In this document: piece by piece, positions 9,231-32,883 of the stretch
Numbering within the stretch: position 1 is the first letter of the stretch
How the letters are laid out: each line of letters begins with the position of its first letter
From: Chrysophaeum taylorii
Taxonomy: Eukaryota > Sar > Pelagophyceae > Pelagomonadales > Pelagomonadaceae
Assembly (NCBI GenBank): GCA_029834535.1
Contig: JAQMWT010000579.1
Span: 1 to 32,883, forward strand
DNA: 32,883 nt
Direction of reading: 5' to 3'
Notes under the pieces: generated by a model
What the model was told of the DNA's origin: nothing
The model's database searches: none
The model's input: the letters and a program-made list of their open reading frames with translations, nothing else
Program-made: the position numbers and the translations under genes

Positions 9231-9260
9231 CAGCTCGCTGGGGCAGCTCGAATTCTTACC

Positions 9261-12238: not shown

Positions 12239-13258
12239 CAAGTGCAGGCCAGTAAGTTCACCTAGTCCCAATCTCTAACCCCAGTAAAATCGGTGTAAAC
12301 CCAATCTCTAACCCCAGTAAGTTCGGCGTAAACCCACACTCACCCCACTCTCCTGCGAGCTCGTCGCTCTCACCCCCGCCAATCAAAGCTGCTTTGATCC
12401 GCACACGCCGCTAAGCTTTGAGTTTACTCTAAAAGCCCCAGTAAGTTCACACTTGGTCTCAGGTAGTTCACCTGGTCACTAAGTTCTTCTAGTCCCAATC
12501 TCTAACCTCAGTAAGTTCACCTGGTTCCAGTAAGTTCACCTGGTCCCACTAAGTTCACCTACAGTGCGCGTGTAGACGCCGGGAGGGGGCTTATCGGTAT
12601 TGCGCAGCACGTGTGGGGTAGGGTGGAGTCGTCGACCCAGATGAGTATATCCTCGGAGATGCCGATCGACAGAGAGCCACGTAGAGCTGGACGTGGCAGA
12701 AGACGGGCTTGGGCAAGAGGACGCCGACCTCGCGGGGCGTCTGGCCCTGGCTCTTGTTGATCGTTTGGCGTCGGCGGGCCTTAAGGGATACAGGTTGGAG
12801 GAGCCTCGGTGACAACGACACGATCGATCATGTATCTGGTACCGTTGCAGTGGCCGTGCGACGGGTCGAGGTTGCGAAGACTTTAAGCTCGCGATCAAAG
12901 TCAGCATGCCGTTGGTTGTCAGGGAGTTGAAAACTCTACTGTAAAGAGCGAGGCGTCGTCTTCCGACCCAGCCTAGTCAGCCGAAAAGAACTCCGACGCC
13001 TCGTCTCCGGGAAAAAAAGGCCGCGGTCATGCGCGCGTTGTCAGCATCGACAACATCGTTTCGACGGGGCGTGAGAATGGCGCGCTGAAAGAGCCGCCGC
13101 GGGTCGTGGAAATAGTCTGCGAGGTCGCCGTAGACGGCTTGGAGGATCACTGTCTGGCTCTCGCGCCTACCTGATCCTTACTCTCGCGCCTACCTGATCC
13201 TTACCCTAAATCGAGGGACAGACAGACAAACAGACAAACATCTGTCGATTAGTAGTTA
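12239..13258 (-). repeat. Helitron array unit 2
   Basis: 1020 bp, without trailing GGA. Nearly identical to unit 3 with the same period; the main differences are a cluster near 12638-12660 versus 13658-13680. At that cluster unit 2 carries the unit 1 variant, suggesting exchange or gene conversion within the array. Confidence 0.8.
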
Positions 13259-14294
13259 CAAGTGCAGGCCAGTAAGTTCACCTAGTCCCAATCTCTAACC
13301 CCAGTAAAATCGGTGTAAACCCAATCTCTAACCCCAGTAAGTTCGGCGTAAACCCACACTCACCCCACTCTCCTGCGAGCTCGTCGCTCTCACCCCCGCC
13401 AATCAAAGCTGCTTTGATCCGCACACGCCGCTAAGCTTTGAGTTTACTCTAAAAGCCCCAGTAAGTTCACACTTGGTCTCAGGTAGTTCACCTGGTCACT
13501 AAGTTCTTCTAGTCCCAATCTCTAACCTCAGTAAGTTCACCTGGTTCCAGTAAGTTCACCTGGTCCCACTAAGTTCACCTACAGTGCGCGTGTAGACGCC
13601 GGGAGGGGGCTTATCGGTATTGCGCAGCACGTGTGGGGTAGGGTGGAGTCGTCGACTCAGAAGACGATATCCTCGGGGTTGCCGATCGACAGAGAGCCAC
13701 GTAGAGCTGGACACGGCAGAAGACGGGCTTGGGCAAGAGGACGCCGACCTCGCGGGGCGTCTGGCCCTGGCTCTTGTTGATCGTTTGGCGTCGGCGGGCC
13801 TTAAGGGATACAGGTTGGAGGAGCCTCGGTGACAACGACACGATCGATCATGTATCTGGTACCGTTGCAGTGGCCGTGCGACGGGTCGAGGTTGCGAAGA
13901 CTTTAAGCTCGCGATCAAAGTCAGCATGCCGTTGGTTGTCAGGGAGTTGAAAACTCTACTGTAAAGAGCGAGGCGTCGTCTTCCGACCCAGCCTAGTCAG
14001 CCGAAAAGAACTCCGACGCCTCGTCTCCGGGAAAAAAAGGCCGCGGTCATGCGCGCGTTGTCAGCATCGACAACATCGTTTCGACGGGGCGTGAGAATGG
14101 CGCGCTGAAAGAGCCGCCGCGGGTCGTGGAAATAGTCTGCGAGGTCGCCGTAGACGGCTTGGAGGATCACTGTCTGGCTCTCGCGCCTACCTGATCCTTA
14201 CTCTCGCGCCTACCTGATCCTTACCCTAAATCGAGGGACAAACAAACAAACAAACAGACAGACAGACAGACAAACATCTGTCGATTAGTAGTTA
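13259..14294 (-). repeat. Helitron array unit 3
   Basis: 1036 bp, without trailing GGA. Almost a copy of unit 2 apart from the cluster at 13658-13680, one base in the helicase remnant near 13712 and a longer microsatellite (about 14239-14276), which accounts for its extra length. Confidence 0.8.
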
Positions 14295-15398
14295 CAAGTG
14301 CAGGCCAGTAAGTTCACCTAGTCCCAATCTCTAACCCTAGTAAGTTCACCTCGCCTCAGTAAGTCACCTGGTCAGTTAGTTCACTTAGTCCCAATCTCTA
14401 ACCCTAGTAAGTTCGCCTCGCCTCAGTAAGTCACCTGGTCAGTTAGTTCACTTAGTCCCAATCTCTAACCCGGCGTAAACCCACTCGTGCTCACACCCAC
14501 TCACTCCACTCTCCTTTGAGCTCGTCGCTCTCACCCCCGCCAATCCAAGCTGCTTTGATCCGCACGCGCCGCCAACCTTTGAGGTTGAGTTGTCAAAAAA
14601 AACCCAGTAAGTTCACCTGGTCCCAGTAAGTTCACCTGGTCACTCAGTTCACCTAGTCCCAATCTCAAACCCCAGTAAGTTCACCTGGCCCCAGTAAGTT
14701 CACCTACAGTGCGCGTGTAGACGCCGGGAGGGGGCTTATCGGTATTGCGCAGCACGTGTGGGGTAGGGTGGAGTCGTCGACTCAGAAGAGCATATCCTCG
14801 GGGTTGCCGATCGACAGAGAGCCACGTAGAGCTGGAAGTGGCAGAAGACGGGCTTGGGCAAGAGGACGCCGACCTTGCGGGGCGTCTGCCCCTGGCTCTT
14901 GTTGATCGTTTGGCGCGGTGGGGCTTAAGGGATACTGGTTGGAGGAGCCTCGGTGACAACGACACGATCGATCATGCATCTGGTACCGTTACAGTGGCCG
15001 TGGGACGGGTCGAGGTTGCGAAGACCTTAAGCTCGCGCTCAAAGTCAGCATGCAGTTGGTTGTCAGGGAGTTGAAAACTCTACTGTAAAGAGCGAGGCGT
15101 CGTCTTCCGACCCAACCTGGTCTGCCGAAAAGAACTCCGACGCCTCGTCTCCGGGAAAGGCCGCGGCCATGCGCGCGTTGTCAGCATCGACAACATCGTT
15201 TCGACGGGGCGTGAGAATGGCGCGCTGAAAGAGCCGCCGCGGGTCGTGGAAATAGTCTGCGAGGTCGCCGTAGACGGCTTGGAGGATCAATGTGTGGCTC
15301 GCGGGCCCACATGATCCTTACCCTAAATCGAGGGACAAACAGACAGACAGACAAACAAACAGACAGACAGACAAACATCTGTCGATTAGTAGTTAGGA
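14295..15398 (-). repeat. Helitron array unit 4
   Basis: 1104 bp, the longest unit, ending in GGA. The subrepeat region has an internal duplication of about 65 bp at about 14340-14470. Its helicase remnant lacks the four extra A/T bases that shift the frame in the other units (GGGAAAGG here, GGGAAAAAAAGG elsewhere on the plus strand). It is therefore the copy closest to an intact helicase frame over 15063-15290. Confidence 0.8.
15063..15290 (-). pseudogene. Helitron helicase fragment, unit 4
   Basis: A 75-residue frame reading ...LFQRAILTPRRNDVVDADN, then RMAAAFPGDE, EFFSADQ and SLFTVEF. In intact Helitron and PIF1-type helicases this region (RAIL.P.N..V...N, then a stretch ending VEFLNSL) lies between the ATPase motifs and the C-terminal KxQGQT motif. 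Only the C-terminal third of a helicase is present. The following NKSQGQT and QLYVALCR motifs lie in other frames at 14800-14920. The frame is open from the unit's 5' end, so 'start' Met is arbitrary. Confidence 0.75.
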
Positions 15399-16417
15399 CA
15401 AGTGCAGGCCAGTAAGTTCACCTAGTCCCAATCTCTAACCCCAGTAAGTTCACCTTGTCCCAGTAAGTTTCGTATAAGTTCACCTGGTCAGTAAGTTCAC
15501 CCAGCTCACACCAATCCTTTGAGCTCGTCGCTCTCGCCTCCGCCAATCTAAGCTGCTTTGATCCGCACGCGCCGCCAACCTTTGAGTTTACTCTAAAAAC
15601 CCTTTACTCTAAAAACCCCAGTATGTTCACCTGGTCCCAGTTTCACCTGGTCACTCAGTTCACCTAGTCCCAATCTCAAACCCCAGTAAGTTCACCTGGT
15701 CCCAGTAAGTTCACCTATAGTGCGCGTGTAGACGCCGGGAGGGGGCTTATCGGTATTGCGCAGCACGTGTGGGGTAGGGTGGAGTCGTCGACTCAGAAGA
15801 GGATATCCTCGGGGTTGCCGATCGACAGAGAGCCACGTAGAGCTGGACGTGGCAGAAGACGGGTTTGGGCAAAAGGATGCCGACCTCGCGGGACGTCTGG
15901 CCCTGGCTCTTGTTGATCGTTTGGCGTAGGCGGGCCTTAAGCGATACAGGTTGGAGGAGCCTCGGTGACAACGACACGATCGATCATGTATCTGGTACCG
16001 TTGCAGTGGCCGTGCGACGGGTCGAGGTTGCGAAGACTTTAAGCTCGCGATCAAAGTCAGCATGCCGTTGGTTGTCAGGGAGTCGAAAACTCTACTGTAA
16101 AGAGCGAGGCGTCGTCTTCCGACCCAGCCTAGTCGGCCGAAAAGAACTCCGACGCCTCGTATCCGGGAAAAAAAGGCCGCGGTCATGCGCGCGTTGTCAG
16201 CATCGACAACATCGTTTCGACGGGGCGTGAGAATGGCGCGCTGAAAGAGCCGCCGCGGGTCGTGGAAATAGTCTGCGAGGTCGCCGTAGACGGCTTGGAG
16301 GATCACTATCTGGCTCTCGCGTCTACCTGATCCTTACTCTCGCGCCTACCTGATCCTTACCCTAAATCGAGGGACAGACAGACAGACAGACAAACATCTG
16401 TCGATTAGTAGTTAGGA
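15399..16417 (-). repeat. Helitron array unit 5
   Basis: 1019 bp, ending in GGA and preceded by the GGA that ends unit 4. It resembles unit 1 in its subrepeat region and has a short, pure GACA microsatellite. Confidence 0.8.
15692..16306 (-). pseudogene. Helitron helicase fragment, unit 5
   Basis: The longest open frame in the array, 204 residues. It starts in the correct frame (LFQRAILTPRRNDVVDADN) and then shifts at the A-rich insertion, so the rest is not helicase-like except for FDSLTTNGML. The true C-terminal motifs, INKSQGQT and QLYVALCR, lie in the overlapping frame 15977-15747. The motif usually reads QLYVALSR in Helitron helicases; here and in the other units Ser is Cys. Pseudogene fragment; no independent function is proposed. 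Confidence 0.7.
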
Positions 16418-17442
16418 CAAGTGCAGGCCAGTAAGTTCACCTACTCCCAATCTCTAACCCCATCAAGTTCACCTGTTTCTGTTAAGTTCACCTGGTCAGT
16501 AAGTTCACCTAGCTCTAACCAACTCCTTTGAGCTCGTCGCTCTCGCCTCCGCCAACCTAAGCTGCTTTGGTCCGCACGCGCCGCCAACCTTTGAGTTCAC
16601 TCCAAAAACCCTTTACTCTGAAAACCCCAGTATGTTCACCTGGTCCCAGTTTCACCTGGTCACTCAGTCCACCTAGTCCCAATCTCTAACCCCAGTAAGT
16701 TCACGTGGTCCCAGTAAGTTCACCTATAGTGCGCGTGTAGACGCCGGGAGGGCTTATCGGTATTGCGCAGCGTGTGGGGTAGGGCGGAGTCGTCGACCCA
16801 GAAGAGGATATCCTCGGGGTTGCCGATCGACAGAGAGCCACGTAGAGCTGGACGTGGCAGAAGACGGGCTTCGCCAAGAGGACGCCGACCTCGCGGGACG
16901 TCTGGCCCTGGCTCTTGTTGATCGTTTGGCGTAGGCGGGCCTTAAGCGATACAGGTTGGAGGAGCCTCGGTGACAACGACACGATCGATCATGTATCTGG
17001 TACCGTTGCAGAGGCCGTGCGACGGGTCGAGGTTGCGAAGACTTTAACCTCGCGATCAAAGTCAGCATGCCGTTGGTTGTCAGGGAGTCGAAAACTCGAC
17101 TATAAAGAGCGAGGCGTCGTCTTCCGACCCAACCTAGTCGGCCGAAAAGAACTCCGACGCCTCGTATCCGGGAAAAAAAGGCCGCGGTCATGCGCGCGTT
17201 GTCAGCATCGACAACATCGTTTCGACGGGGCGTGAGAATGGCGCGCTGGCTAAAACAGCCGCCGCGGGTCGTGGAAATAGTCTGCGAGGTCGCCGTAGAC
17301 GGCTTGGAGGATCACTGTCTGGCTCTCGCGCCTACCTGATCCTTACTCTCGCGCCTACCTGATCCTTACCCTAAATCCAGGGACAAACAAACAGACAGAC
17401 AAACAAACAGACAGACAAACATCTGTCGATTAGTAGTTAGGA
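16418..17442 (-). repeat. Helitron array unit 6
   Basis: 1025 bp, the right-hand unit, ending GTTAGGA at 17442 and followed by unrelated AGACAGGTTT. It carries several private changes, including a short deletion near 16750-16775 and a small insertion near 17248 (GGCTAAAACAGCC). Confidence 0.8.
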
Positions 17443-17855: not shown

Positions 17856-18500
17856 CTAGTACCACGTCACACAGCGTCTTAGATACATACTAAGCGCTAA
17901 ACTGATGTGTCGGTGGACGATTTTTTCGGACGCTTTTGTCGGAGCCTTGGACTCCTCGGCCGGTGGCGGGCCGAGCTCGAGGCGGTCGCACCGCGTGTCA
18001 AAACGTTGGGCCTTCAACGTGAGCTTGCAGCGGCCTTTGAAGTCGATCCGGGAGAGGTACGTGTACAGTTCAATGGTGGTGAGCTTGCGAAGCGAGTTGT
18101 AGGTGTTTTGCTTCAGCTCTTCCAGCGCGCGCGCGATCTCGTCCTTCTTTTGCTGCGCCTCGCGTACTTTGGTAGCGTCGTCCTTGGGCCACTCTGCACT
18201 GGCGAGGCGCTGCTCGAAATTCTTGATTATGCCCGGGAGGCGCGCGAGCACGACAGCAACCTTGTCGACGTGCATATGCTCGTCGACCTCGCCTCTCTCA
18301 AAGGCGGCGATGACGTCGGTGATTTTTTTCGCGTTGAAGGCATTAAAGGCGTCGAGCGTCGGTCGGAAGCTCAGTATGCGAGCGCGTTCCTGATGTTCGA
18401 GGATCTCGGGCCTGCTGTGTTTGCGGTTGATGCCGAGGATCGATTGTACGAGAGTTCGGTGACGCCAGCAACCCCGCGTCGCTCGAGAGTCTCTTTCAAA
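17856..18500 (-). CDS. Unknown protein fragment with helical C-terminal half
   Basis: A frame ending at TAG 17856-17858 is open from about 18495. Its ATG-initiated part starts at 18275 (139 aa), but the upstream residues (SRPEILEHQERARIL, TLDAFNAFNAKKITDV) look equally protein-like. The middle is charged and probably helical (EWPKDDATKVREAQQKKDEI, ALEELKQN), followed by a basic region. No family is recognised. The ORF at 18371-18610 overlaps it in another frame and could be its N-terminal part after a frameshift or exon junction. It lies between the two Helitron-related regions on the same strand, so it might be captured host sequence; that is inference. Confidence 0.4.
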   Translation of the reverse strand, partial: FERDSRATRGCWRHRTLVQSILGINRKHSRPEILEHQERARILSFRPTLDAFNAFNAKKITDVIAAFERGEVDEHMHVDKVAVVLARLPGIIKNFEQRLASAEWPKDDATKVREAQQKKDEIARALEELKQNTYNSLRKLTTIELYTYLSRIDFKGRCKLTLKAQRFDTRCDRLELGPPPAEESKAPTKASEKIVHRHISLALSMYLRRCVTWY

Positions 18501-18610
18501 AGGCTATCAGACCAGGCGCGTCGGTTGGTGGGTGTTCCATGCACTGCAGCAACAGCCGGGTCATCCACGCGGAGACGAAACTTCGGTGGCATCGTGGGCC
18601 AGGAATTCAC
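18371..18610 (-). pseudogene. Unknown ORF, possible upstream part of 17856-18500
   Basis: 79 residues starting MNSWPTMPPKFRLRVDD, with AWSDSLLKETLERRGVAG in the middle; the last 20 residues become Ser/Ala/Asn-rich where the neighbouring frame becomes protein-like. This suggests a switch of frame near 18430-18450. No motif recognised. Confidence 0.3.
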
Positions 18611-18901
18611 AAACAGCAGCCAAAGTACAAGTCCCCATAGAGCGCGCAGCCGTCCAGGCCCTCGGTGGTATGTGCCGAGGACTTAGTTTGCGTGAAGCTC
18701 TAAACAGGCCTCTGGGGGCGACGCTGCGCCCCAAAACGGGCCGAATGAGGGTTTCGTCGCTCACAATAAACAGCCGTGTCAACCGATTTCCACCTCGCCG
18801 CGTCGCGTTTCTTGCTCGGGGACACCCAGGGCGAGTACGACCAAGGTGCTGGTACGATGGGACCGACGGGACCTGCGAAGGATGCTCGTCGCCGAACGCT
18901 T

Positions 18902-19653
18902 CTAGGGTTGGCCGAAGGCCGAAGATTTTGAGTTTTTTGCAACACGATAGGCGCATGACGTCACGAGGCCTTGGAGATGAAATAATTCCTTGCAAGGCCA
19001 GCCGTGGAATCGCGGAGTCTCTTCGCGGTCTTCTTTCCAGTAGAGCATCGCCGAGACGTGGGAAAGCAACCACAGTACGAGCCTGGCTTGTCGCCACGTT
19101 TCTCGTTTGTGTGGCAGGTAAAAAGCAAAATGAAGTGTGGGAGACGTTGATGAAGCGGCAGCGCGTCGCCTTCGACATACTCGCGGAATGGCACCACCAA
19201 TAATTCTAGCTCGACGTAAAAGAAGAAGAAGGCATTCTTGTACGACGGGCATTCTTTGCAGAACCAGTCGAGTGCCGTCTGAACATCAACATCATCGCAA
19301 TCAATGTGGAATTCTCGGTACAGCTCCATAACATCTTTGTCAACGCCCGGTCGCGCATCCACTGCGCTCTCCCGCGTGGCATCAAATACGTGGATCATGC
19401 GCGAGCTGTTGATCTTCAGCTGCTCGCTTTTCTTCAACCCACCGAGCCTCGGAACGTCGGTCGATTTGAGCCACCGCGGCGCCCCCTCGGACTTGAGGCG
19501 CTCGTCCTGGATGTCAGCGGCCTCACGCTGGTCGGTGTCCGGCGTCTCTTTCGAGCTCTTTTCATTGCCGGCCTCGCCGTTCCCCTCGCCGTCACTTTCA
19601 TCGCCATCATCCGTAGCTTCGAAATACATGTCCTCGACGTCGCCGGTGGTCAA
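18902..19653 (-). pseudogene. Unknown acidic protein, frameshifted
   Basis: The frame 19653-18961 (230 aa, non-ATG at its left edge, stop-free upstream to about 19705) starts with a very acidic stretch (ATDDGDESDGEGNGEAGNEK). A more ordered part follows (KSEQLKINSSRMIHVFDA, VDVQTALDWFCKECPSYKNA, FFFFYVELELLVVPFREYVE). Around 19160-19190 the more protein-like reading passes to the overlapping frame 19252-18902 (TLHFAFYLPHKRETWRQARL, SHVSAMLYWKEDREETP), so there is probably an indel. No family is recognised. It directly follows the Helitron N-terminal region, but I find no HUH Rep motif in it. Confidence 0.35.
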
Positions 19654-19699
19654 CTCCGCGCCGGCGCCGGCGCCGGCGCCGCCACCCCGGCCGTCGACC

Positions 19700-21275
19700 T
19701 CGAACGGGCGCCATCAATATGCACTTCTCCCTCTCCCTGGCGTCGGCGTTCGCGCTGTTGATGTAGGCGTCGGCGTGTCGAAACGTTCGGACGAAGCGGT
19801 TGTTGGCTAGGATGACTGCCTGGACCGTGCGGACCACGTGATCGTTCAGGAGCGACGACTGGAGGCGGTGCTGGAGTTGCGTGCCAGGATCGAGCAGGTA
19901 CGTCTGCGCGAACATCGGCGCCTCGCCGGCCCGCGGCCGCAAGGAGCCCAGGCGGTGGTGTATTTGCCCCGAGATGCGCAGGGCGCTGATGGGGCACCGA
20001 TTGCTCGAGGTCGTGTTGCTTCTGGCGAACGGGCGCTCGTCGTGGACCTGCATGCTCGCGAACGTGAAAGCGTTGTTGAGCTTGCGGGCGTCGGCTCTGA
20101 AGGCGTGTTCGGTGGCGTGGGGGGTCGTGATGAGATGGACGAACTCCGGAGGCGGGTTCGGAGGGTCGGGAAGCACGACGGTGCCCCCCGAGCAGCACCG
20201 GTTGTATTTGTTTTTCGGGAAGCACGACGGTGCCCCCCGAGCAGCACCGGTTGTATTTGTTTTTGGTCGTCTCCTCCGACTGCCAGTAAAGCGCGAAGCA
20301 GTGCGGATAGACTTTGTCCATCGCGCCGGCGTCGTGCGTAGGGACGGTTCTCTCGTCGAAGTCGTCGAGGGCGCAGCGGGCGACAAAGGTCGGGCGTCGC
20401 CGCACTTCGTTGACGACATTTTGGCGGGCGCGTCGCTGTTCTGTGGCGTGGGCGGCGAGCCGCGCGGCGCGCTGGCCGTGGTCGTCGGTTCGTTGGCGCG
20501 ACTCGCGTTGTTCCTGGGCGTTGGTTGCGAGCCGGGCGTCGCGGTCCCCTCGTTCGTTGGCGCGCTTGCGCGATTCGCGCTGCTCGGCCGCATTGCTCGC
20601 CAGGCGAGCGTCGCGGTCCCCCCGCGCGTCCGCGCGCGCTCGCGACTGGCGTTGCTGTTCCGCGTTCGTGCGTCGCGCCGCCGCGGTCTCCTCGGGCGAA
20701 GCCGCGTGGCGCGCCGCGATGCGGCGGTGGCGGTCGCGGACGTATCTGTAGCCGGCGTGCTTGAACGTAAAACGGTACCCCGTTCGATAGCAGGAGTCGC
20801 AGCCGCGTCCCGCGCACGACGCGCACGCGTCCTCGCGGTATTGCCAGAAGTGGAGGATCTGGGCATCGGTGAAGCTCCGGTACGTAGCCGCGGCGTCGTC
20901 GACGGCGGTCGCGCGGGTGGCGGCGGGCAAGGTCGCGTCGGGAGCGGGCGCGGCCGGGACGACGCGAGGCTCCGGAGGACCGTCGACCGTCCGTACGTGT
21001 CCGACGGGCGCCGGATGCGCGTTCGTCGCGGCGTCGTTCGCGTCGGTCCGGAGGAGGCGCGCGGCGTTGATTCGACGTTGGCGGCCGTACATGTACCTGT
21101 AGCCGTCGTGCTTGGTCGAGAATCGGCGCCCGGTCCGGCAGCAGGCGTCGCATCCCTCGGCCGAACAGCGTTCGCATCGTTCGTTGCGATCGCGCCAGAG
21201 CGCGAGAATTTCGTCGTCGGCGAGGTCTCTGTAGGCGGCGGTGGCGGAGGAGGACGGCGCATCGGTCGTTGCCAT
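19700..21275 (-). pseudogene. Helitron Rep-helicase, N-terminal half
   Basis: Helitron proteins nick and replicate the element by a rolling circle. The frame starts at ATG 21275-21273 (MATTDAPSSS). Two related zinc modules follow, CxxCx4CxxC at residues 34-45 and 151-162, each with a RTGxRFxxKHxGYRY tail. About four 20-residue Arg-rich repeats (EQRESRKRANERGDRDARLA type) lie at roughly 195-285. Then comes the Helitron-like N domain: PHCFALYWQSEE, KYNRCCSGGTVVLP, KLNNAFTFASMQV, ISGQIHHRLGSLRP and APMFAQTYLLD. A 49-bp tandem duplication at 20167-20264 shifts the frame inside this domain, and the rest continues in another frame. The Rep catalytic region and helicase are absent downstream. Confidence 0.85.
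20167..20264. repeat. Exact 49-bp tandem duplication in Helitron gene
   Basis: 20167-20215 and 20216-20264 are identical. The unit covers the KNKYNRCCSGGTVVLP segment. Since 49 is not a multiple of three, the duplication breaks the reading frame. The perfect identity points to a recent event or an assembly artefact. Confidence 0.95.
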
Positions 21276-21731
21276 GATAATGAGGAGGAGGGCGTAGTGC
21301 ACAATCCACAGTGCTCGGTTCGGAAGTTCGCGCGTGGCGTCACGATTCTGATCGTTATATCTTCTAGGGCAGGGTTTGGGTCGAGGGGAGGGCAAAAGAA
21401 AAGAAAGTAAGTCGAGATCTGTCTTAATTTCGTATCTTTTTCCCACTCCTTACATTACCTAGTGGCTCCGAACATCCATAGTTAACGATTGTTATATATT
21501 ACCGTGGCTACTTTCACTACCACTGTATGCCACCACGGAACTCGACCTCGAGAGGTACCTCAAACTCCCCTAACTACCGTAATCTTCTACACCAGACACA
21601 ACCGCTCTCATGCACGCCGAGAGATGTGGGCGCAAAACCGTTCATGAATAGCAGTGCTTTTGGCGCATACATTAGCAAAAGAACAGAAAGTAGGGCCCGG
21701 GTGAAGTGTCGAGAAATGAATCGTTTTTTTG
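21276..21731. other. No gene recognised
   Basis: 5' flank of the Helitron gene plus unassigned sequence up to the inverted repeat copy B. It is less GC-rich than its left neighbour. I see no Helitron 5' terminus like that of the array units, and no RNA gene. Confidence 0.5.
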
Positions 21732-22484: not shown

Positions 22485-22943
22485 CGTCGGTTCCCAAAAA
22501 GAGCAGAGAGCGACATGTGCAGACGTATGGCGCGAAATTTCAGACGGTAGCGTTGGCCTTTATTTCCACATCCACACGCACGTTGGACGATGTCGACATC
22601 ATCGACTAACTGATCCGTGGGTTAGAGCCCAAGGATTTAAGAAACCGCGTGCGGACCATGAGGAGCGGCCATCCCGATAGCTATCTAACGTTTACCTCCA
22701 CCACCTGCGGCAGGAAAGGATTATGCGCGCGGACTTCTTACCCTGCTTCGACTGTGCCCTCGACGTCTCGAGGGTGCCGAGCGGGTTGAGAAGCGCTTCC
22801 TTCCTGTCGATCAACCTTCGAACTGCCCACGAGCTTCAATCCGGAGACTCGTGAAATGATTTATGGTTGAGATTAGTCGATTTGAACGAGGGAAACGCCT
22901 GGTGGCGTTGCAATACGTGCGTCAGCGGTTGAAGTAGAGTCCA
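22485..22943. other. No gene; probably includes the LTR of element 2
   Basis: Sequence between repeat copy B and the inserted short element. If the 13-bp duplication is removed, the right-hand part is continuous with the 3' LTR of element 2. No ORF of interest and no clear LTR end were found. Confidence 0.45.
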
Positions 22944-23344
22944 GTAAACGGGAAGTAAGTAACTAACTAACTAACTTCAGACCTCTGCCGAGCATGGGAG
23001 CCAGGCCGGACCGACAGGAGCCAGTCCGGAATCACGGGCCTGTAGACGAGGGGCGCCGAAAGGTGGGTCGGCGGAGAGTGATCATCAAGTTTGTCGCCAT
23101 GCGACGAGGAGACCGCGATGTGACTGACAACCAACTCGTCGATAACCTTCCGTCTTCGCCCCCCGGCCATACCCCGTCCCACTGCGAACGTTCCGGCTGC
23201 CAACCGGCCAGCCCGAGAGGCGAATAGGTGCCAACCTACGCCGGGAGGGCGGATGCCCTCGCAAGGCTCAGGATTCATGAGGCACCGTCCTCCATAGCAA
23301 CCATGCGGTCGGCGATCAGGGTAAGGGTATGGTAAACGGGAAGT
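22944..23344 (-). mobile_element. SINE-like retroposed element, copy 2, with 13-bp TSD
   Basis: The body at 22957-23331 lies between exact 13-bp repeats GTAAACGGGAAGT at 22944-22956 and 23332-23344. On the minus strand it starts CATACCCTTACCCTGATC and ends GAAGTTAGTTAGTTAGTTA. It is about 75 bp longer at the 5' end than copy 1. The extra part contains TGGTTGCTATGG and ATGAATCC, weakly like pol III A and B boxes, but spaced too closely to be convincing. It is inserted in the 3' LTR of element 2. Confidence 0.78.
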
Positions 23345-23406
23345 GGGGTAGAGAACTCGATAGAACTAGGGGTGAGGATGGCGGTGTAAGGGTTACCGCC
23401 ACAGGA
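23345..23406 (-). repeat. Start of 3' LTR of element 2
   Basis: In element orientation the LTR starts TCCTGTGGCGG directly after the polypurine tract AGGGGAG (23407-23413), as in element 1. The short retroposed element interrupts it after about 60 bp; the remainder should lie left of 22944. Confidence 0.6.
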
Positions 23407-23432: not shown

Positions 23433-25219
23433 TCAGCGACGGCGGTGGTGCGACTGAAGAGAGTTTCGGCGCGGATCGTCGGTGGACGGGACTTGAGTGC
23501 GCGTCTGATGAGCGCGTTGTTGAGCTTGGAGTTGTTCTTGTTCTTGGCGCGCGTGATGCGCGAGAATATTTTTGACTCGCTGGACGATCGGGGGAGGAAC
23601 TGATTTACCCTGGAGCTTGAACCGGGGAACCCGGGCGTCGATCTCGTCCGGGGCGAAGTCGGTTACGCAAGGGGTGCATTGAGGTGTTAATTTCTCGGTG
23701 CGAGTGAAGCTGCGACCGAGTGCCGTCTTGAATTCCGGGCTCGGCGTGCGACCTTCAAGCGGCGAGGTCGGGTCGAAATACGATGGGTCGTCGCGCGGGC
23801 CCAGGTCGGAGTAAAAGTGGAGAGCGACTCGGTCTTGAAGATCATCATAGTCCTCGAAAACCTCGGCGACGTAGAGCTTCTTGCGCCAATCGGGGTCTCG
23901 GGCCGACGGGATGCGGAAAATGACGAGCTTGCCGCGCTCATACTCGTCGCGGAATCCGGGTCTCGGAAGACGGATCGTGGCGTCGAGTGCGGGAGGCATC
24001 GATACTGGGGTGATCTGTTGGACCGATGCGATTCGCTCTTCGGCGGCTCCGTAAACCGATCGGATCTTGTACGAGACGGGTGAGAGGCGCTCGGTGATGA
24101 GAAAGGGCCCGCGCCACTCCGGTCGCAACTTGTGTTGGGACTGCGGAATGTACAGCAGCACGTGCGAGTTGACGTTGTATTCGACGTCGATGTGATCGGC
24201 GTCGTACGCGAGCTTCTGCGTCTTCTTGGCCTGCTCATGTGCTTCCGCGACGACTTTCGAGTAATACTGGAAGTTTTGCTTTATCTCCAGTCGCGCGTCG
24301 GATCGGGGTCGCGGCAGAACAGGATCGGGCTGAACCAACAGGGTGTAGTCCGTGGGCAACATCGGCTGCCGGTTCCGGCGCAACATGGACGGGAGATTTG
24401 CGTGCCGGGGATGAACTTTCGGTTGTAGCAGAACGACACGTAGCGGACGAAGGCCGGCCAGTCGGTGATGCTGCGACCCTCGAGGCAGGCTCGGAGGAAT
24501 GCCTTGAGGAACCGATTGACTCGCTCCGCGGGGTTCGCTTGTGCGTGGTACGGTATCGTCGTTCTGTACCGGACGTCGAACTCTACGAGGAAGGCCCGTA
24601 GCAGCCGGTTGACGAACTCGCGACCATTGTCGGTGAGGATCATACGCGGGAGAAATCCCTGAATGAGGATGTTTCGCACGAAGGATTCTAAGATGGCGTC
24701 GGCGTGCTTGGTGTTTATGACGTCCAAGACCAGACAGTGCGAGAACGGGTCGAACATCACGAGGATGTATGTGGACTTGCCGGCGCTCGGCAGGGGTCCG
24801 AAAAGGTCCATGCATAGAACGGCGCCATCTCCGTCGTATATCGGCTGCTGGAGCATCCCTTTTCGCTTTGGCTCCGGGGTTCGCGACTTTTGGCAAACTA
24901 GGCATTCGTTGACGAAGACTCCAACCTGGTGGGACATGCGCGGCCACCAGAACCGCTCGGCGATCGCGGTGACGGTGCTATCGCGTCCAAGATGTCCTCC
25001 CATGGGCGAACTGTGGTGGATGCGCATGATCCTCCCTCGCATGGTTGCGGGCGCGACGATCACAGGTCGGAGGTCGATGTCGTACCGGTACAAAACTCCC
25101 TTCCATACATCATAGCGGACGTTGGCTCCGAATCGGCGGCGAGAATCGCTTTGGTTCATCCCCGCGCGGATACTATCGCATAGAGGGTCGTTCTTCTGGG
25201 CTTCAGCAGTCTCTTCCAG
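23433..25219 (-). pseudogene. pol: Integrase and C-terminal domain, element 2
   Basis: In two frames. From 25159 to about 24392: the zinc domain (GGHLGRDS and ECLVCQ), then the DDE core with MDLFGPLPSAGKSTY, LTDNGREFV and ANPAERVNRF. A one-base deletion near 24392 (at GTQIS) moves the reading to the frame ending at TGA 23433. This frame gives MLRRNRQPMLPTDYTL, RPEWRGPFLITERLSPV, and the C-terminal domain ERGKLVIFRIP..DWRKKLYVAEVFE..DRVALHFYSDL, ending in a Gln/Arg-rich tail. The same domain in element 1 makes it a stable part of the family. The TAA at 25220-25222 separates this segment from RNase H. Confidence 0.9.
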
Positions 25220-26052
25220 TTAGATGTTGTCAGGGATCTTGTCGATGAATTCCTTCTGTAGCCCGACGTCGGTTTGCAACGGTGGCTTGCACGAGCGCAG
25301 GGCCACTTTCTTGCGATGTTGCGTGGCGTGCGATGCGGCGTATCCCATCGGATCGTCTGTATGGTCCTCGAGGTCCTCGGGTATCTCGGTCTGCATCAAG
25401 TTGAGGATGACGTGACACCCGGCTTTGCCGTCGGGGAGAGGCAGCTCTTGCACGACCAAGTACGCGTGATTGAGCGGCTCTCCGAATTCGTCGGTCTCGA
25501 TGACATGGTCGATCGGATTCCTCGAGAGGCAGTCGGGGATGCTCATTCCCGGGGACTTGCCGGGCTTATAGCCGAGTTCGGGGTCGAAATTGGCCAGCCG
25601 CATTGCCCATCGGGCGAGCTGCCCGGTGGAGTGGGTCGTGTTCCGGAGGAATGTCAGATTCCGGTGGTCGGTTTCGAGGACGGTTCGGTGGCCTTCGATG
25701 AACGAGCGGAAGGTTTCGAGGGACAGGATCACTCCCAGGAGCTCCAGACGGCGCGGCTCGTAATTACGCATCTCGTTGGGCACCGCTCGGCTCCAGTACT
25801 CGACAACTCGTTCTTCACGACAGGTGTGACCCTTGTCGTCCTGGACTTCGACGATTTGGAAGAGATAAGCTCCGAGACCGTCTTTGGAGGCATCGGTCCT
25901 GATGTGGAAGGGGAGGTCGTAATCCGGATGGTACACTCCGCGGGAATCCGCTAGTGCGTCGATGATGGTGTCCCACGCCTTTTAGCACTCTGGCGTCCAT
26001 TTGAACGGCACTTCCTCCAACGTCCGGCGTCGCAAGGGCTCCGCGATCTTTG
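25220..26052 (-). pseudogene. pol: RNase H domain, element 2
   Basis: RTDASKDGLGAYLFQIVEV (first Asp), ELLGVILSLETF (Glu) and LETDHRNLTFL (Asp) match the Ty3-type RNase H that removes the RNA template. The GYKPGKSPGMSIPDCLSRNP segment is almost identical to element 1. Continuous reading is broken upstream by TAA 25983-25985, where element 1 has a Gln codon, and by a one-base deletion near 26053. It ends at TAA 25220-25222 (DKIPDNI-stop), where element 1 reads on. Confidence 0.88.
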
Positions 26053-27003
26053 AATGTCCTTGATGTATCTCCGGCAGTAGTTGCTCATCCCGATGAACGA
26101 GCGGATTTGCGTCTTCGGGGAGGTTTTCGGCAGCGTCCCAGGAATCGGCATCTTTCGTCGTGCTTCCGACGTTTTGGGGTTAGGCTTCAATCCGTCGGGA
26201 GTTGAGATATGACCAAGGAACTCGATTTCGTCTTGGAGCAAGTGGAATTTGGCTGTCCGGCCACTATGTCCTTTGGAGGCCAAGTGGGAGAGGACTTCGA
26301 TCAGGCACTGCAAATGATCGTGGACGTTATTCGTTCCCATGATGATGTCGTCGATGAAGCTGACCAGGTCGCGGTACATCCATTTCGTGAGGTCGGCTGT
26401 CATCTGCCTGCAGAAGAGGGCGCCCGCGGTCTTCACTCCCAAGGGCGGTCGGAGAAAGCTGTGGGCTCCGAGCGGGCTGACCATCGTCACGGCGTCCTGT
26501 GCCTGCGAGTCCAGTCGAAGGTTGTGGTATCCCAATCGAATGTCGATCGAGGTCCGGAACCTTCGTCCGGCCAGGAACGCTAGGGCGTCCTCCTGCGGCA
26601 CGTTCGGCCAGCTGTCGCCTACCAACTGGTCGTTGAGCTGACGTAAGTCGACGGCCGCGCGGAAGGCGTTGGATGTTCCGAGCTCTGCACCTTTCTTCGG
26701 GAGCATCAGGACCGGGAACCCCCAGGGGGATTCGGCAGGTCTGATGACTCCGTCTCTGCACCATTCGGCGATCTGCTGTCGAAGACATTCGATCTTGGCG
26801 GGAGTAAGGCGGTACGGCGACATCTTGATGGGTTTTGGGTCCGCGTCTTTGAATCGGAGGGATACCGGTCGAGAATCCACGGGTCTCATGATGGGATCGA
26901 AGAACGCCCAGGAGTATCGAACGCAGTGCGCCAACATGAGTTTGGCATCTTCGTCCAGGTGAGGGTTGTTCGGGATGCCTAGCTCATCGACGGCCTTGTC
27001 CAC
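25951..27003 (-). pseudogene. pol: Reverse transcriptase domain, element 2
   Basis: Open frame of 350 codons, lacking an ATG at the domain start because it is part of a polyprotein. Visible: PYRLTPAKIECLRQQIAEWC, SPWGFPVLMLPKKGAELG, TSIDIRLGYHNLRL (catalytic Asp), PPLGVKTAGALF and FIDDIIMG at 26338-26358 with the Asp pair. Then comes the primer-grip region, HLLQDEIEFLGHISTPDGLK. The last 30 or so residues are out of frame after the deletion near 26053. It follows the TAG at 27022-27024 in the same frame, six codons later. Confidence 0.92.
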
Positions 27004-27021
27004 TTCTTCTTTCGTGGGGTT

Positions 27022-27565
27022 CTAGACGACCATGGCCTCGTTCCCTTTCAGATGGTTGGGCTGTTGCGGTAGCGGTGCGCCGTCTTCGTCCCGGGGTGCG
27101 TTTTTCCATGGCACGTCAAACCGTTCCTCGTAATTGAACCGGGCGTGCTCTTTTGTCTTGTCGCTCGTTGGTTCCTTGGTCGGTTTTCCGTCCCTTGGTT
27201 CGCCTTTTGAGGTTGCATCGTTTTTGCTCGCGCGGGTACCCCCTTGGGAAGATGAGTGCATCGTCCCTGATGCAGCGGGCTTCGGAGGGGTTAAAGGAAG
27301 GTCCGGCGGTTGCCATTTCGCTTTATCCTGGAGGTCGCGGTTCGGCACCCAGTGAACTGCGCGAGTCGAAAGGTTCACAAGGGCGCTTCGGGGCTCGGGT
27401 GCGGTGGCTCCCCCGCGGGCGCGGTCGAAGGGGGCGCGCTCGACGATGTATGTTTCGGAGGGTTTGTCGGTGGGTACGACTACGTTCGGGCGCGCGATTC
27501 CGATGTTGCGGAGCGTGGACGGGAGCGCGTTGTGTGCGTCGAGGACTATATACGCCATGGAAGAC
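27022..27565 (-). pseudogene. pol: Linker between methyltransferase and RT, element 2
   Basis: Open frame 27558-27022 (178 aa) ending at TAG. It contains IVLDAHN, WVPNRDLQDKAKWQPPDL, a Lys/Ser-rich middle and EERFDVPWKNAPRD. All are conserved in order in element 1, so this is an authentic pol segment between methyltransferase and RT. It may be a spacer or an undetected small domain. The ATG at 27558 is probably only an internal Met: the upstream methyltransferase frame joins this one if one C of the run 27566-27571 is ignored. Confidence 0.75.
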
Positions 27566-28405
27566 GGGGGGTATGACGGCTGCTATATGCTTCATTCGGT
27601 CCGTGACTGTGAGGTTGCCCCATGCGAGATCGCTTGGCATTGTGAGAGCCTCCGCGAGCATTTCTAGTTTGAGTGCCCTGGTGTCCGAAGGCGTGGGTCC
27701 CGTTCGCACGCCGTTCCGCGTGATGGTGTATATCGGTGCTGTGGCCTCTCGCGTGCATCCAAAGTTGTTGCGCTGGATGAGGGGCTGCGCAGGGTCGAGT
27801 CCGAGTTTGGCGGCGAAGGTATCTTGAATAGTGCCGCACGTTTTGGGACGTCGGATGAGCTGAAGAGGCCAGCTCGTGATGATCATGCGCCGACGGGTGC
27901 TCATGAGGTCCGGCGTCGTCGTCCACAGGTCGACGACGGTGATGAACCCTTGCCTCAGCGTGATTCTCGAGCGGATGGAAGGTTCCTGCTCGATGATCCA
28001 GCGTCCTACTCCGGAGAGCTGAAAGAGCTTGATGGTCCAATTGGTCGCGGAGACTCCTTTCCCGGCGTCGCGGGCCGTAAGGTTGCACAAGGAGGAATCG
28101 ACGCATGGGGCCGTGCCAACGAAAAGTGCCATGGGCCATAGGCTTTCATGCAGGTAACCTTTGACCAGAGAAAGGACCCTGTCGTACCGACCGCCGAGAG
28201 TGTGCTGGACGACAGGTATTCCTGGAAAATTTCTCTCATGGATTTCTTTGGCGGTGTCGGATGCGTCGATGACGAGCACGACCTTGTACGCGGTTCCGAG
28301 CCATTCGTTGCTCCGGTATAAACCCTGGGTGCCCCCTCCAATCCCGCCGAAGAACATCACCACGGGCGTCACATTCTCCGGGATCCAGGAGAGTGCCTGG
28401 TGTTT
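27566..28405 (-). CDS. C5-cytosine DNA methyltransferase-like domain in pol
   Basis: About 280 residues at the end of the 1477-codon ORF. Motif I (AdoMet binding) reads MFFGGIGGGTQGL at residues 1134-1146, followed by VVLVIDASDTAKEIHERNFP (motif II-like). Motif IV reads GTAPCVDSS, with candidate catalytic Cys1218. Motif VI reads WIIEQEP, with Glu1256 in place of ENV. Motif VIII reads STRRRMIIT at about 1286-1294. The end, NLTVTDRMKHIAAVIPP, matches motif X. The order and spacing are those of C5-cytosine methyltransferases such as M.HhaI and DNMTs, which transfer a methyl group to cytosine in DNA; the size is near the minimal core. Gln after PC and the Asn of ENV are missing, so activity is uncertain. 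It shares the polyprotein frame with protease. Confidence 0.82.
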
Positions 28406-31400
28406 GTCAATGATCGCTTGTTCAGCGGTTCGGGACTTCGGCGGTTCGTGCGTCTGGGGGGCTTGCAGGCGCGGCTTGATTGACGACGTTCGAAGTGCTT
28501 GGCCGTCGGTTTCTCCGGGGTCTGGAGTTGGATAACTGGTGACCGAGACCGTGAAGGAGGCCGTGCCCTCGTGCTCGCTTGCGTGTGAGTTTCCAGGGTC
28601 GGCGCTTGGCCACGGGGTTGTCACCTGAACTTCTTCTTGGCAGCGGACGATTTCCCCCCGTGCGAGCTCTTGACCTGGGAGGATCGACATCGGTGTTTCG
28701 TCCCTCGACGACATGGCCACCGCGGCCGCAGTCGGGTCGGAGTGGTCATGTGTCGAGCAGGTTCCGGCGACGACGCCGAGGTGCTCTACGCTCGGCGCAG
28801 TGGCGACGAAGGCTTCTCCGGGCTTCAGCGCTTGGCTCAGTTTGACAGGGATGTTGTGGGTTCGACCGGGGTCGACACGCTGGGAACCGGTTGCGAACGC
28901 TCGGATCTCGGGCGCGGACGGTTTCGGGTCGTTGCTCGGCATAGATGGGTCCTCGGCCAAGGTGATGGCGGCCGACGCCCGCCGAGGAGGCGGCGAGAGG
29001 AGATCCTCTGCCGTGAGGAGGGGTGGAAGAGCTCTCTCGCCACCTTGACTCCGACTCTGCGCCAGCGCTTGCCCCCGGAACCCGCAAATTGGTGCTACGA
29101 CGGGGTGTGCTTCATAGGCTGCCCGATAGAGGATTGCGGGTGACCGAACAATCTCCCCCGCGTACGGTAGCTTCATCATTCGGAAAACTGTTTGGGTTCG
29201 CAAAAAAGAAATTCGGTCTCGGGGGTAATCGACAACAGCGCCCAAGGCTCGAATATCGCGGGCTCCCAGCAAAAACTGTTTATTGGTGTGTGCCACGATG
29301 GCGACGACCGGCACAGCCATTTCGTCCGAGACGGATATTCGCAGGGCGATCCACTCCGAAATCGAGGACGTGTTCTTTCCCGATCCGAAGAGCGTGCGCT
29401 CGAAAGGCAGTTTGCCGCTGTCCAGTAACATGCCTCGCTTCCTCATTAGGCGCGCGAGGTCGTGACAGATGTAGGTGACGTCGGCCATTCCGTCCACCCC
29501 AATTACCGTGGCATACGATGATTTGCCCGTTTTGTCGAATATATGGATGGGCATGAACGTTAGACTGCCGGCTTCCAAACAGTTGAGGACGCGCAGGTCT
29601 CTGTCGATCGTTTCGGCGTTGATGGAGGCGAACGATGAGTGCATGCACATCGCTTCGTCCTCTGTCCCTGCCATCGGCATCGATACGTGCGCGCGTCCCG
29701 TGACGAGACGGCGGGCTCTCGACCACCAGTTCTGTCGGTGCGTTCGCGGGTCGGCGGGAAGCTCATGGATTCTCCGCTGCAACTGCCGGCCTCTTTCTTC
29801 GCGCTCTCGAGTCCGGGATTTGGTGCGCTCTGGGCTCTTTTTGTTCCAGAGTTTCTGGACTCTCGTCCATATCCCCAACACTCGGCGCGGACGTCTCACT
29901 CTATCGCTTCTTAGCCGCATGCGGGGTGTTTCCGAGCCGGGAACTTCCTCGAGGCTTGTCGTTTCTCGAGCTCCGCGCGAGGGATCCCTGTCTGTTTCGG
30001 CTGCCTCGTCCGATCCTTCCGGTTCCGGCGTAATCGGTTCCCTAGCGGGTTCCTCAACTGGTGGCGACTCGCTGCTTCCGCTGCCAATATCGCGGCCGTG
30101 TCCGCGGCGGGTACCCCCTTGGGGAGAGTGCGGCGTCGCCCTCGACGTTGAATCGGGGATGATATCGTTGTCGGTTGTGCTGCCGGCGGCGTCCCGGTCG
30201 TTCCGGTCGGGCGCGTAGCCGACCGCCTCCGCGGGGTTTTGTCGGCGCGGGTTCGCAAAAGCTTGGAGAAGGGCATCTCTTATTGTTGTAGCGGTTTCGG
30301 GTCCGTGCGGATGACTGAATAGGGCCTGGAACAATTCTCCGGGTTGACTTTCGCGTTCGTCCGAACTTTCGCTGTCCGATTCGGTGTCATCGTCAATGAG
30401 GTCGGGGAGTTCGTCATCGGCGTGCGAATTTGCCTCCGGTGATCCCGTTCGGTTCGCGTCGGGGTTGGAGTCGTCGTCGCGGACACCATCACTGTCGGAG
30501 TCGCCCGGGTGCTCATCGGTTGCGTCCGTGCCCGAGTCGGAGTCGTCGTCGCTGTCGGACACGTTCTCGACGAGGTCGGAGACGTCCGTGTCCGACTCGT
30601 GCGGGACGTGCGTGGTGGCGCCGCTGATTCGACTGGCAACATCCTCTTGGGCGTGCGAACTCGAAGTTTCGGAGGTGTCGCTGGCGACCGAGGATGTTGC
30701 GTCCGACTCGTGCAGTCTCCGCTCGAGGTCGGCGACGTTTCGGAGGCTCGACTCAACCAGAAGCGATAGCGCGTTCTCCCCGGGATCTGGCTGATCGGCG
30801 TCGGGCATCTGGGGGGTGAGCGAGCGCGAGTCGACCGTTCGCTCCGCATCGACGTCCGCTTCGGGGGGGCCGGCATTTTCCTCGTGCAAGAGCGGGGCTC
30901 CTAGCGAGGTGAGCTTTGCCTGTGCTATTGCGATCTCTGCTTGCATTTTGTCGAGCTCGTCCTCCGGGACCACGTCGAGAGCGGTCGGGGAGGCGAACGT
31001 CGAGTCGGCCGGTGCGGTCATCACGCTCGGCTTCGGCGGCGGTTCGCTCGGTGGTGTCACTGGGGCCACGGAGACCGGCCGCAGTGCTCCAAAAGACTTT
31101 CCGTCGGTGCTGCTGGCCGACCCGAGGGGCGTGGCGTCGGTGATGGAGCATCCGGCGGCTCCGTCCCTCGATCGAGGCCCAAAGAAAGACCCCGCGTAAT
31201 CCAGCGAGGATTGCGTACTCGAGCTCGAGGAGTTTCGCGCTGCGAGCATGCGCTCGACGATCGCTTCGACCTGGTTGACCTGCACGGTGCCAGCACCCGG
31301 CGAGGCGGTGGCGTTCGCATTCGCGGGCGGTCGTCGGTCGCCGTTGGGTCGTGCTGCTTTCTGTTCTCTCTTCCAGGCTCCGTAAGGGATGGGTTCTTGT

Positions 31401-31756
31401 CCTTGCCGTCGCCGCGCTTTCATTGCTTGCTTATACGCGTTCGGGCGCGGGCATCGGAGGGAACCATCCGCGTTTCGCGTATGGTCGATCTTGTAGTTTC
31501 CGCAGTCGCACATCTTCTTCATCCATGCGTCCTTGTTTCGCATACTGGGCCTCGGATCGTCGTCTACCTCTGGCTCCTCCTGTTGCGTCGCGTATGCGCC
31601 GTTTTTTTTGCGGTCGCGCGGGTCGCGTGGCGGCGGGCCGGTGGTCTTACCGGGGCGCGCCTTCTGCCACGCGTTGAACTGGATCTCGTGCCGGAGGATC
31701 AGGCTTTGTACCTCAGCGAAGGTGTTGTACTGACTAGGCTGATCGCATCGCGCCAT
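27566..31756 (-). CDS. Gag C-terminus, acidic linker, protease and methyltransferase polyprotein
   Basis: The longest open frame in the window; the useful part runs to residue 1397, after which the frame is lost and it continues as non-homologous sequence to 27323. Domains: gag-like end at residues 1-40 (YNTFAEVQSLILRHEIQFNA); Cys/His motif near 90-115; linker with long Asp/Glu/Ser runs at about 370-490; Arg/Lys-rich part; protease at about 720-870; a divergent segment; methyltransferase at about 1118-1397. It overlaps the preceding gag frame (31699-32844) by 58 bp in the -1 frame, so it is probably expressed as a fusion. The ATG at 31756 is unlikely to be a true start. Confidence 0.8.
29150..29595 (-). 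other. Retropepsin-like protease domain, atypical active site
   Basis: Positions relative to the ORF beginning at 31756. SSYATVIGVDGMADVTYI is where retropepsins have a hydrophobic-hydrophobic-D-(S/T)-G-A motif; here Asp755 is followed by Gly-Met. About 100 residues later, QFLLGARDIRALGAVVDYP matches the second conserved block (ILG-x-D-xL...). Fold assignment is good, but the active site lacks the usual Ser/Thr-Gly. It should process the polyprotein if active. A damaged copy is equally possible. Confidence 0.6.
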
Positions 31757-32844
31757 ATGAATCTTTGCTGCAGCTTCGTCGATGCCAGTCCGGCGATCAT
31801 TTGGTGAATCATCTCGATGCTATCCATCGACGTGCCCGTCAACGCTGTATAGGCCGCAGCCTCCTTCTGCAGCGACTTGAGGTACCAGGACCCTCCTTCT
31901 TCGGCGTGGTGGCCTGCGTGATGGCCTGCGACCTTGGTCCGGCTTCCTCGGTCGCTGCGCGGAGGCTCGGCAGGCTTGGCGGAGCTGCTGGAGGATCCGC
32001 TGGACGTGGAGAGGTTCATGTCGCGAAGCTGTCGGATCTGTTCCTTGTACGGCGTTTGGCTGTCGGCGTGGAATTGCAGATAGAACGACTCGGGGTGGCC
32101 GAACGAGGTACACAGTGCCTCGGCCGCCATTCGCCCTTCCTCCAACGTCGGTAGCACGGCCTGTCGCACGTCGTCCGCGAGGCCAAACGACAGCGAGCTA
32201 ATAGAATAGTGGTCCTTCGACAACTCTCCGACGATGAGGGCGGCCTCGTGATCGAACTGCCGCTGGTCTTTGCCCTCGATGTCCAGCTTGATCATCTCCA
32301 GCTTGAGACGTCGGTGCCTCGGGGCAGCCGCGTCCTCGTATCTTCGGGAAGCCAGGGCGGCGGATGGCCCTTGGCCCGTTGCGGCCCTCACCAGTGCGGC
32401 GACGATCCTGTCGGCTTCCGTGGGTTCCTTCTTCTTCCTCGTGGGCTCGCGGACGATTCGCTTGCTCCGCGCGTCGGACCGGCGGTTCGCTGCTCGGCGG
32501 CTCGGAGTCGGATTCGTCGAGGTTCGATCCGCGAGGCGATTCGGGTCGCGGTGGTCGCGCTCGCTGCTCTCGACGCGTCTTGAGCGAGCGCACTCCTCCC
32601 GGAGATCTGGATTTCGTTCGCTGCGGCTTCGCGAGCGTGCTCCGCGTCCTCGCGGGCGCGTCGGAGCTCGTTCTGAAGGGCTTCCTCCTCCCGGTTCGCG
32701 GTTTCGAGTCGAGCCGTCGTCGCCTCTTCGATCTGCGCCGCGATTTCTTGAGCCGATCGCGCCCTCCTCGCGCTCTGCGCTTGCTTTGACTCTCCTCATC
32801 TTGTATTCGGATCCGCTCTTGCAGCAGGCTTCGCACTTCTTCAT
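31699..32844 (-). pseudogene. gag: Gag N-terminal and capsid region, element 2
   Basis: Frame of 381 codons, continuing out of the window. Residues from about 130 on look authentic: EADRIVAALVRAATGQGP, RRLKLEMIKLDIEGKD, EEGRMAAEALCTSFGHPESF and EMIHQMIAGLASTKLQQRF. The first part is Arg-rich and less convincing. In an overlapping frame at about 32750-32600 a coiled-coil-like stretch is visible (EIAAQIEEATTARLETANRE, EALQNELRRAREDAEHAREA), so a further indel is likely there. The frame ends at TGA 31699, while the homologous gag end continues in the -1 frame. Its role would be the structural protein of the particle. Confidence 0.6.
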
Positions 32845-32883
32845 CTTGCCGGTTGCGCTGCTGCAGCTGGTCTTGGAGCAACG

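Follow-up and report, generated by a model that had tools for sequence, protein, structure and literature searches.

A decayed Ty3/Gypsy retrotransposon of Chrysophaeum taylorii with a probable, divergent C5-cytosine methyltransferase in its Pol region

Element layout and methyltransferase motifs

The window analysed here is the entire contig JAQMWT010000579.1 (C579; 32,883 nucleotides) of Chrysophaeum taylorii, whose genome comprises 70.8 Mb in 697 contigs. Scans for open reading frames (ORFs) and Pfam domains located one Ty3/Gypsy element on the minus strand, with its 5′ end cut by the contig end. The initial annotation had described this element as carrying a C5-cytosine methyltransferase (MTase) between protease and reverse transcriptase (RT), and the description was borne out, for a protease-like region, by the motifs, the RT match and the profile comparison given below. 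The motifs it listed were present in order, and its placement of the domain (27566–28405, minus strand, residues 1118–1397 of a 1477-amino-acid (aa) ORF) was correct. The features are listed here, where family A is the window copy's own family and family B its sister family.

31702–32883 (−): gag-like ORF, assigned by position, cut by the contig end
31442–31513 (−): zinc-finger-like CxxC ... H ... C motif at the end of gag, by eye
29183–29623 (−): protease-like region (VDGMAD ... LLGARDI), by eye
28622–28918 (−): conserved stretch from the protease-like region to the MTase, 40% identity between families A and B
27566–28405 (−): C5-cytosine methyltransferase-like domain, 280 aa, from motifs, profiles and predicted fold
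25954–27021 (−): RT (Ty3/Gypsy), Pfam RVT_1 1.3e-11
25223–25981 (−): RNase H, Pfam RT_RNaseH 1.1e-25
24281–25159 (−): integrase, zinc-binding domain and core, Pfam Integrase_H2C2 3e-18 and rve 1.7e-11
22695–23403 (−): 3′ long terminal repeat (LTR)-like repeat, interrupted (22695–22948 and 23332–23403), common with the 5′ end of the copy on contig C405
4057–7624 (+): second element, family B, 5′-truncated, with MTase motif X, RT, RNase H and integrase

As the initial annotation had proposed, the MTase lies in frame with the end of gag and the protease: the 1477-aa ORF (27323–31756, minus strand) holds the CxxC motif, the protease-like region and the MTase domain. The RT, RNase H and integrase of the window copy lie in frames other than that of the MTase; the frame breaks right after the MTase and then again further on. 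MTase and RT share a single open frame in two other copies, L010 on contig C169 (1856 aa) and L029 (2068 aa). The RVT_1, RT_RNaseH, Integrase_H2C2 and rve matches follow the Ty3/Gypsy order on the minus strand, and the plus-strand element, where coding sequence can first be recognised at MTase motif X, has the same order. By its domain order and broken frames, the window element is a decayed Ty3/Gypsy retrotransposon copy.

The remaining parts of the element were less readily matched. The gag-like ORF gave only a sub-threshold Pfam match, probably by chance, the Pfam scan found nothing in the protease-like region even at E 10, and the conserved stretch at 28622–28918 had no Pfam match. Retropepsins carry DTGA or DSGA, and the protease-like region here reads DGMA; its motif, VDGMAD ... 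LLGxRDI, is kept in families A and B (window 29183–29623; L029:2018–2452). The repeat at the 5′ end of the C405 copy matched the window copy near its 3′ end at 94%, in two pieces of the same orientation, one LTR per copy being compared. The start of the LTR-like repeat, TGTGGCGG, is common to C405 and contig C608.

Within the MTase domain the following motifs were located. Residue conservation refers to the 40 rows of alignment A4, which covers the N-terminal (catalytic) half, is in register and was used for folding.

28319–28363 (−): motif I, VVMFFGGIGGGTQGL; F19 and G23 nearly invariant, G21 invariant
28091–28117 (−): motif IV, GTAPCVDSS; P100 and C101 invariant
27977–28000 (−): motif VI, WIIEQEPS; E139 invariant
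27875–27907 (−): motif VIII, LMSTRRRMIIT; R171 and R173 invariant
27566–27598 (−): motif X-like, RMKHIAAVIPP, without the usual GN

In a mixed full-length alignment (A3), motif VI was out of register, and this alignment was not folded. The initial annotation had called the residues of motifs IV and VI unusual. For motif VI this stands, with IEQE found throughout families A and B; for motif IV it does not, as APC is private to the window copy, and 13 of the 14 other aligned rows read PPC and the remaining one QTF.

Identity of the methyltransferase domain

Fifteen aligned copies, nine of family A and six of family B, were compared with Pfam, NCBIfam and PHROG, matches being counted at E up to 1. 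The window copy alone had no match in Pfam or NCBIfam and reached E 0.05–0.06 against PHROG. A search with PF00145, which the initial annotation had suggested, failed for the window copy taken alone and succeeded for 6 of the 15 copies (best 3.3e-6). TIGR00675 (dcm) was matched by 8 of the 15 (best 7.7e-4), phrog_116 by 14 (best 5.3e-8) and phrog_363 by 13 (best 8.7e-8).

In profile–profile comparison, families A and B together matched a set of 12 C5 MTases at 96% (E 3.8e-9, 242 columns), and five column-shuffled controls reached 0.1–0.4%. Against a deeper C5 MTase set, which kept its first row, L062, in the wrong reading frame, the match was 94.7% (E 6.3e-8) and the shuffles gave 0.1–4.1%; the reference L036 was not in the 12-MTase set. 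Structure prediction, also proposed in the initial annotation, returned a predicted C5-MTase fold for the catalytic half aligned in A4. These results suggest that the domain is very probably a C5 MTase. We consider it very improbable that it is a chance look-alike of the motifs and not a methyltransferase at all. That explanation would fit the window copy's lack of a Pfam match and the searches of 5.8 billion proteins, in which neither the polyprotein region (1691 candidates) nor the 15-row profile (7999 candidates scored) found a match; the shuffled controls of the profile comparison, the Pfam, TIGR00675 and PHROG matches of the sibling copies, the invariant residues of A4 and the predicted fold all argue against it. 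IMG/VR and prokaryote genomes likewise yielded no relative. Because no close relative was found in the collections searched, a separate acquisition of the MTase, as the initial annotation had suggested, is plausible.

Several results weigh against the reading that the element encodes a divergent C5 MTase which modifies its own nucleic acid. Family A alone matched the 12-MTase set at 42.4% (E 2.6e-4) and the deeper set at 76.7% (E 2.1e-5). The alignment behind the fold model included 28 known C5 MTases, so that the fold match is not independent, and an AlphaFold model built on the 15 own sequences alone reached a pLDDT of 40 and was discarded. The closest solved sequence was DNMT2, a tRNA methyltransferase, at a non-significant E of 0.03. 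Throughout families A and B, motif VI reads IEQE instead of ENV and motif X reads KHxA without GN. Both ENV and GN are common in C5 MTases and not required for the class. Finally, families A and B differ more in the MTase (48.6% identity) than in the RT (82.5%); their identity is 54.5% for the protease-like region and 37–40% for two flanking stretches.

Abundance, selection and a second element family

The WxIEQE motif had 310 matches genome-wide, and its reversed control had none. The motif list was complete for contigs up to C200, and 47 of the 114 scored RT matches lie on these contigs. At 40 of these 47 the motif stood upstream of the RT on the same strand, 39 times at a distance of 864–1049 bases, and at one further RT (C11) an MTase match was in place. 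By these counts, the MTase is a regular component across a large family of elements.

Selection was measured on 19 family A copies from 20 loci, the duplicate contig L027 having been dropped, as the normalised nonsynonymous-to-synonymous ratio (N/S) of variants common to at least two copies. N/S was 0.09 in motifs I–VI and 0.25 in VIII–X; the two flanking linkers gave 0.37 and 0.40, and the RT 0.19 (MTase versus linkers, p 1.1e-4; MTase versus RT, p 0.20). Mean pairwise dN/dS was 0.24 for the MTase (18 copies) and 0.135 for the RT (6 copies). Singleton variants were nearer neutral (0.45–0.68 in the MTase halves) and are mostly decay after insertion. These ratios indicate that the MTase is under purifying selection and was kept while the element multiplied.

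The selection data bear on whether the domain could be a catalytically dead MTase, retained in Pol for nucleic-acid binding or for a structural role. The altered motifs VI and X would favour this. However, the catalytic Cys, Glu and Arg are invariant in A4, whose rows leave out the family A copy L018 that has lost the Cys, and selection is strongest in motifs I–VI. A genome-wide pattern that left the Cys codon open found 301 matches (reversed control 0), and the Cys was absent at three places among about 100 matches listed. We therefore regard a dead enzyme as improbable. The domain is, in our estimate, probably functional during transposition.

A second family, C, carries a different C5 MTase. 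Its copy L047 (G000:C96:61500-71000) has a single 1952-aa ORF; L003–L008 also belong to the family C locus set. The order in L047 is a protease-like IDGGAS region (by eye, without a Pfam match), C5 MTase, integrase and RT; an RNase H was recognised by eye in the following frame. The RT matched RVT_2 at residues 1686–1933 (1.6e-38), rve matched at 1016–1110 with E 0.006, below its cut-off, and the MTase matched PF00145 at 349–475 (32.1 bits), with motifs AGGLHQEGF, TLPCQ and IVENV. From this domain order, with integrase before the RVT_2 RT, family C is classed as Ty1/Copia. The family C motif had 97 matches genome-wide (reversed control 0). Among 57 PF00145 rows in the genome, 41 had the family C motif, L004 and L007 were family C by sequence, L001 and L002 were other genes, and 12 rows were left out. 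Together, the Gypsy and Copia families hold about 400 recognisable motif copies, far above the number of the host's own C5 MTase genes. The PF00145 protein of L002 (G000:C621:15462-18998; 7.9e-18) is encoded in an open frame of 2086 aa containing acidic runs and is unlike the DNMT2-like L001.

The family C profile matched the C5 sets at 96.0 and 97.3% and families A/B at 0.2%. A single clade of A/B and C was disfavoured but not rejected (p-AU 0.056); the reading of two captures is based on the different retroelements and the failed profile match between A/B and C, not from the tree. The Copia MTase domain had no match in the 5.8 billion proteins (7270 candidates). Selection in family C (7 copies) was strong throughout (0.13–0.15), without contrast between the MTase and the preceding stretch. 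By domain order and profile, Ty3/Gypsy and Ty1/Copia elements, of two superfamilies, each have a C5 MTase at the corresponding position behind the protease-like region, and the two enzymes are unlike.

Other observations concern the surroundings of the elements. Past the integrase C-terminus of the window copy, which gave weak Integrase_p58_C and SH3_Tf2-1 Pfam matches, a conserved tail at 23436–23900 (minus strand; VIFRIP...WRKKLYVAEVFEDYDD...VALHFYSDLG) is also present in L029 and, by eye, is a possible chromatin-reader domain. Repeat units of about 1 kb, 83–93% identical to the end of contig C405, occur at seven places in window 7586–17349. This repeat adjoins element copies at C608, at C405 and in L029, at C608 directly after the LTR start, and may be a satellite used as an insertion site or a hitchhiking repeat. 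The family B element (window 4057–9902, plus strand) is apparently split by the unit at 7601–8596, past which pieces of the L029 3′ part match 8694–9589 and 9656–9902. The GC-rich region at 18500–21450 (up to 0.65) has long frames on both strands, and the two long minus-strand frames scanned had no Pfam match. Elsewhere in the genome, rbcL and, after it, an rbcS-like frame lie on one contig; we take this rbcL to be of the red-type form and named the frame after it rbcS by eye. Another contig holds rRNA of bacterial type together with a mitochondrial 5S rRNA in permuted form (mtPerm-5S, 44.5 bits). Permuted mitochondrial 5S is described in brown algae (PMC11528492). From these genes we take the host to be a photosynthetic ochrophyte.

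CpG footprint, possible role and known systems

CpG observed/expected ranged from 0.94 to 1.39 along the window in 3-kb steps and was 1.22 in family A, 1.30 in family B and 1.03 in family C (L001, 1.26; L002, 1.46). In family A, singleton C-to-T changes per 1000 sites amounted to 9.8 at CG (96/9787), 10.3 at CHG (44/4279) and 11.4 at CHH (129/11359). The corresponding values were 8.3, 6.2 and 7.2 in family B (10, 4 and 12 events) and 27.9, 24.8 and 33.2 in family C (27, 13 and 59 events). Thus, neither CpG depletion nor an excess of C-to-T decay at CpG was found in the three families, a further point on the negative side of the balance drawn above. Because both signs are missing, lasting CG methylation of the resident copies is unlikely, except where deamination is efficiently repaired. 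The absent footprint may be compatible with transient marks or with methylation at other target motifs.

One way in which the enzyme could act, and the silencing version of what the initial annotation had suggested, is by methylating integrated copies or host chromatin, leading to lasting silencing or concealment. The identity of the domain as a C5 MTase is consistent with this, and SymbioLINE copies were reported to be poorer in CGs than other retrotransposons (de Mendoza et al. 2018, PMC5890265; here and below, statements on cited papers refer to parts of their text). Repair or a non-CG target could also mask such methylation. Nevertheless, the CpG ratios of 1.03–1.30 and the lack of a C-to-T singleton excess at CG give it a small chance, and of the readings weighed lasting self-silencing fits the data most poorly. 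The missing footprint argues against the simplest self-silencing and points to a role at the replication stage.

We estimate at roughly 55% the probability of the whole explanation that we prefer, namely that the element has a Gypsy Pol with a divergent C5 MTase that methylates element nucleic acid during replication. Because the MTase is part of Pol, it would be packaged with the RT and would meet the element RNA and the fresh complementary DNA (cDNA). It would then methylate element nucleic acid in replication, most likely the new cDNA, and the methylation could briefly protect this or label it as self before or at integration, in contrast to lasting CpG methylation of resident copies. For action on the element's own cDNA in particular, we put the chance at slightly below even.

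Alternatively, the domain might methylate cytosines in RNA, as DNMT2 does, with the genomic RNA of the element or the primer tRNA as its target. The top solved sequence matches are to DNMT2, if weakly (E 0.11 and 0.032), the host's DNMT2-like L001 adjoins families A and B in the tree (93/77) on long branches, the element families lack a CpG footprint, and RNA methylation was raised for SymbioLINE by de Mendoza et al. (PMC5890265). However, the DNMT2 match is limited to motifs I–II and is not significant, enzymes packaged with Pol would meet cDNA as well as RNA, and a search with the predicted fold does not tell RNA from DNA enzymes. We consider an RNA substrate rather unlikely, but still a serious rival to the preferred reading.

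A broader and rather doubtful proposal is that two LTR superfamilies each captured a different C5 MTase and that these enzymes modify the element cDNA or RNA in the particle without a lasting CpG mark, a transient self-modification whose function would resemble that of genome modification in phages. Because hosts usually turn cytosine methylation against transposons, it calls for an explanation that a transposon maintains a C5 MTase of its own under selection. The presence in one genome of two superfamilies with different C5 MTases at matching Pol positions makes the question of the substrate (cDNA, genomic RNA or chromatin) testable. The elements also add an orphan MTase lineage, of which Pfam misses the window's own copy.

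Apparently new here are the orphan C5 MTase and the joint occurrence of C5 MTases in Gypsy and Copia elements of an apparent ochrophyte. No ochrophyte LTR element with an internal C5 MTase appears in the available parts of PMC12477816, PMC9998398 and PMC3145265, and no other report of such an element was found in the literature searched, which mostly excluded subscription papers and preprints. PMC6338049 lists stramenopiles among the hosts of DAM- and DCM-encoding retrotransposons, type unspecified. One written association with Copia, in PMC12344493, cites the de Mendoza work as 'LTR Copia and DIRS' and is seemingly a restatement.

De Mendoza et al. (PMC5890265) described C5 MTases carried by LINE and DIRS elements of dinoflagellates and, as a Dnmt3, by a Gypsy element of a charophyte; the DIRS-type MTase methylated CG in yeast, and the LINE and Gypsy types were inconclusive. 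The closest known system is this Gypsy element, KnitGypsy-Dnmt3 of Klebsormidium nitens, which likewise is an LTR Gypsy element with a C5 MTase within the Pol ORF under purifying selection. Its MTase is Dnmt3-related, whereas the MTase here reads IEQE in motif VI and is not detectably close to Dnmt3, no DNMT3 having appeared in the listed matches to solved sequences (E up to 1). The charophyte host of KnitGypsy belongs to another lineage. SymbioDIRS-Dnmt3 and SymbioLINE-Dnmt of Symbiodinium (PMC5890265) share with the present elements a selected domain and hundreds of retrotransposon C5 MTases per algal genome. They are DIRS (with tyrosine recombinase) and LINE elements, in contrast to Ty3/Gypsy and Ty1/Copia here, and Symbiodinium is CG-methylated with CG-poor SymbioLINEs, whereas the elements here show no CpG depletion. 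DIRS elements with Dam-like methyltransferases (PMC5890265, PMC6338049) also carry a methyltransferase in a retroelement polyprotein, but of the adenine type, structurally unrelated to cytosine DNMTs. Orchid Ty3/Gypsy elements have also captured a nucleic-acid-modification enzyme, but their domain is an m6A RNA demethylase (PMC9289625). In Ectocarpus, also an ochrophyte, transposons have captured accessory domains too: Gypsy elements carry NADAR or chromatin readers, and Sola1 carries ParB and a methyltransferase, which is predicted to form N4-methylcytosine or N6-methyladenine, unlike the C5 MTase here (PMC12477816).
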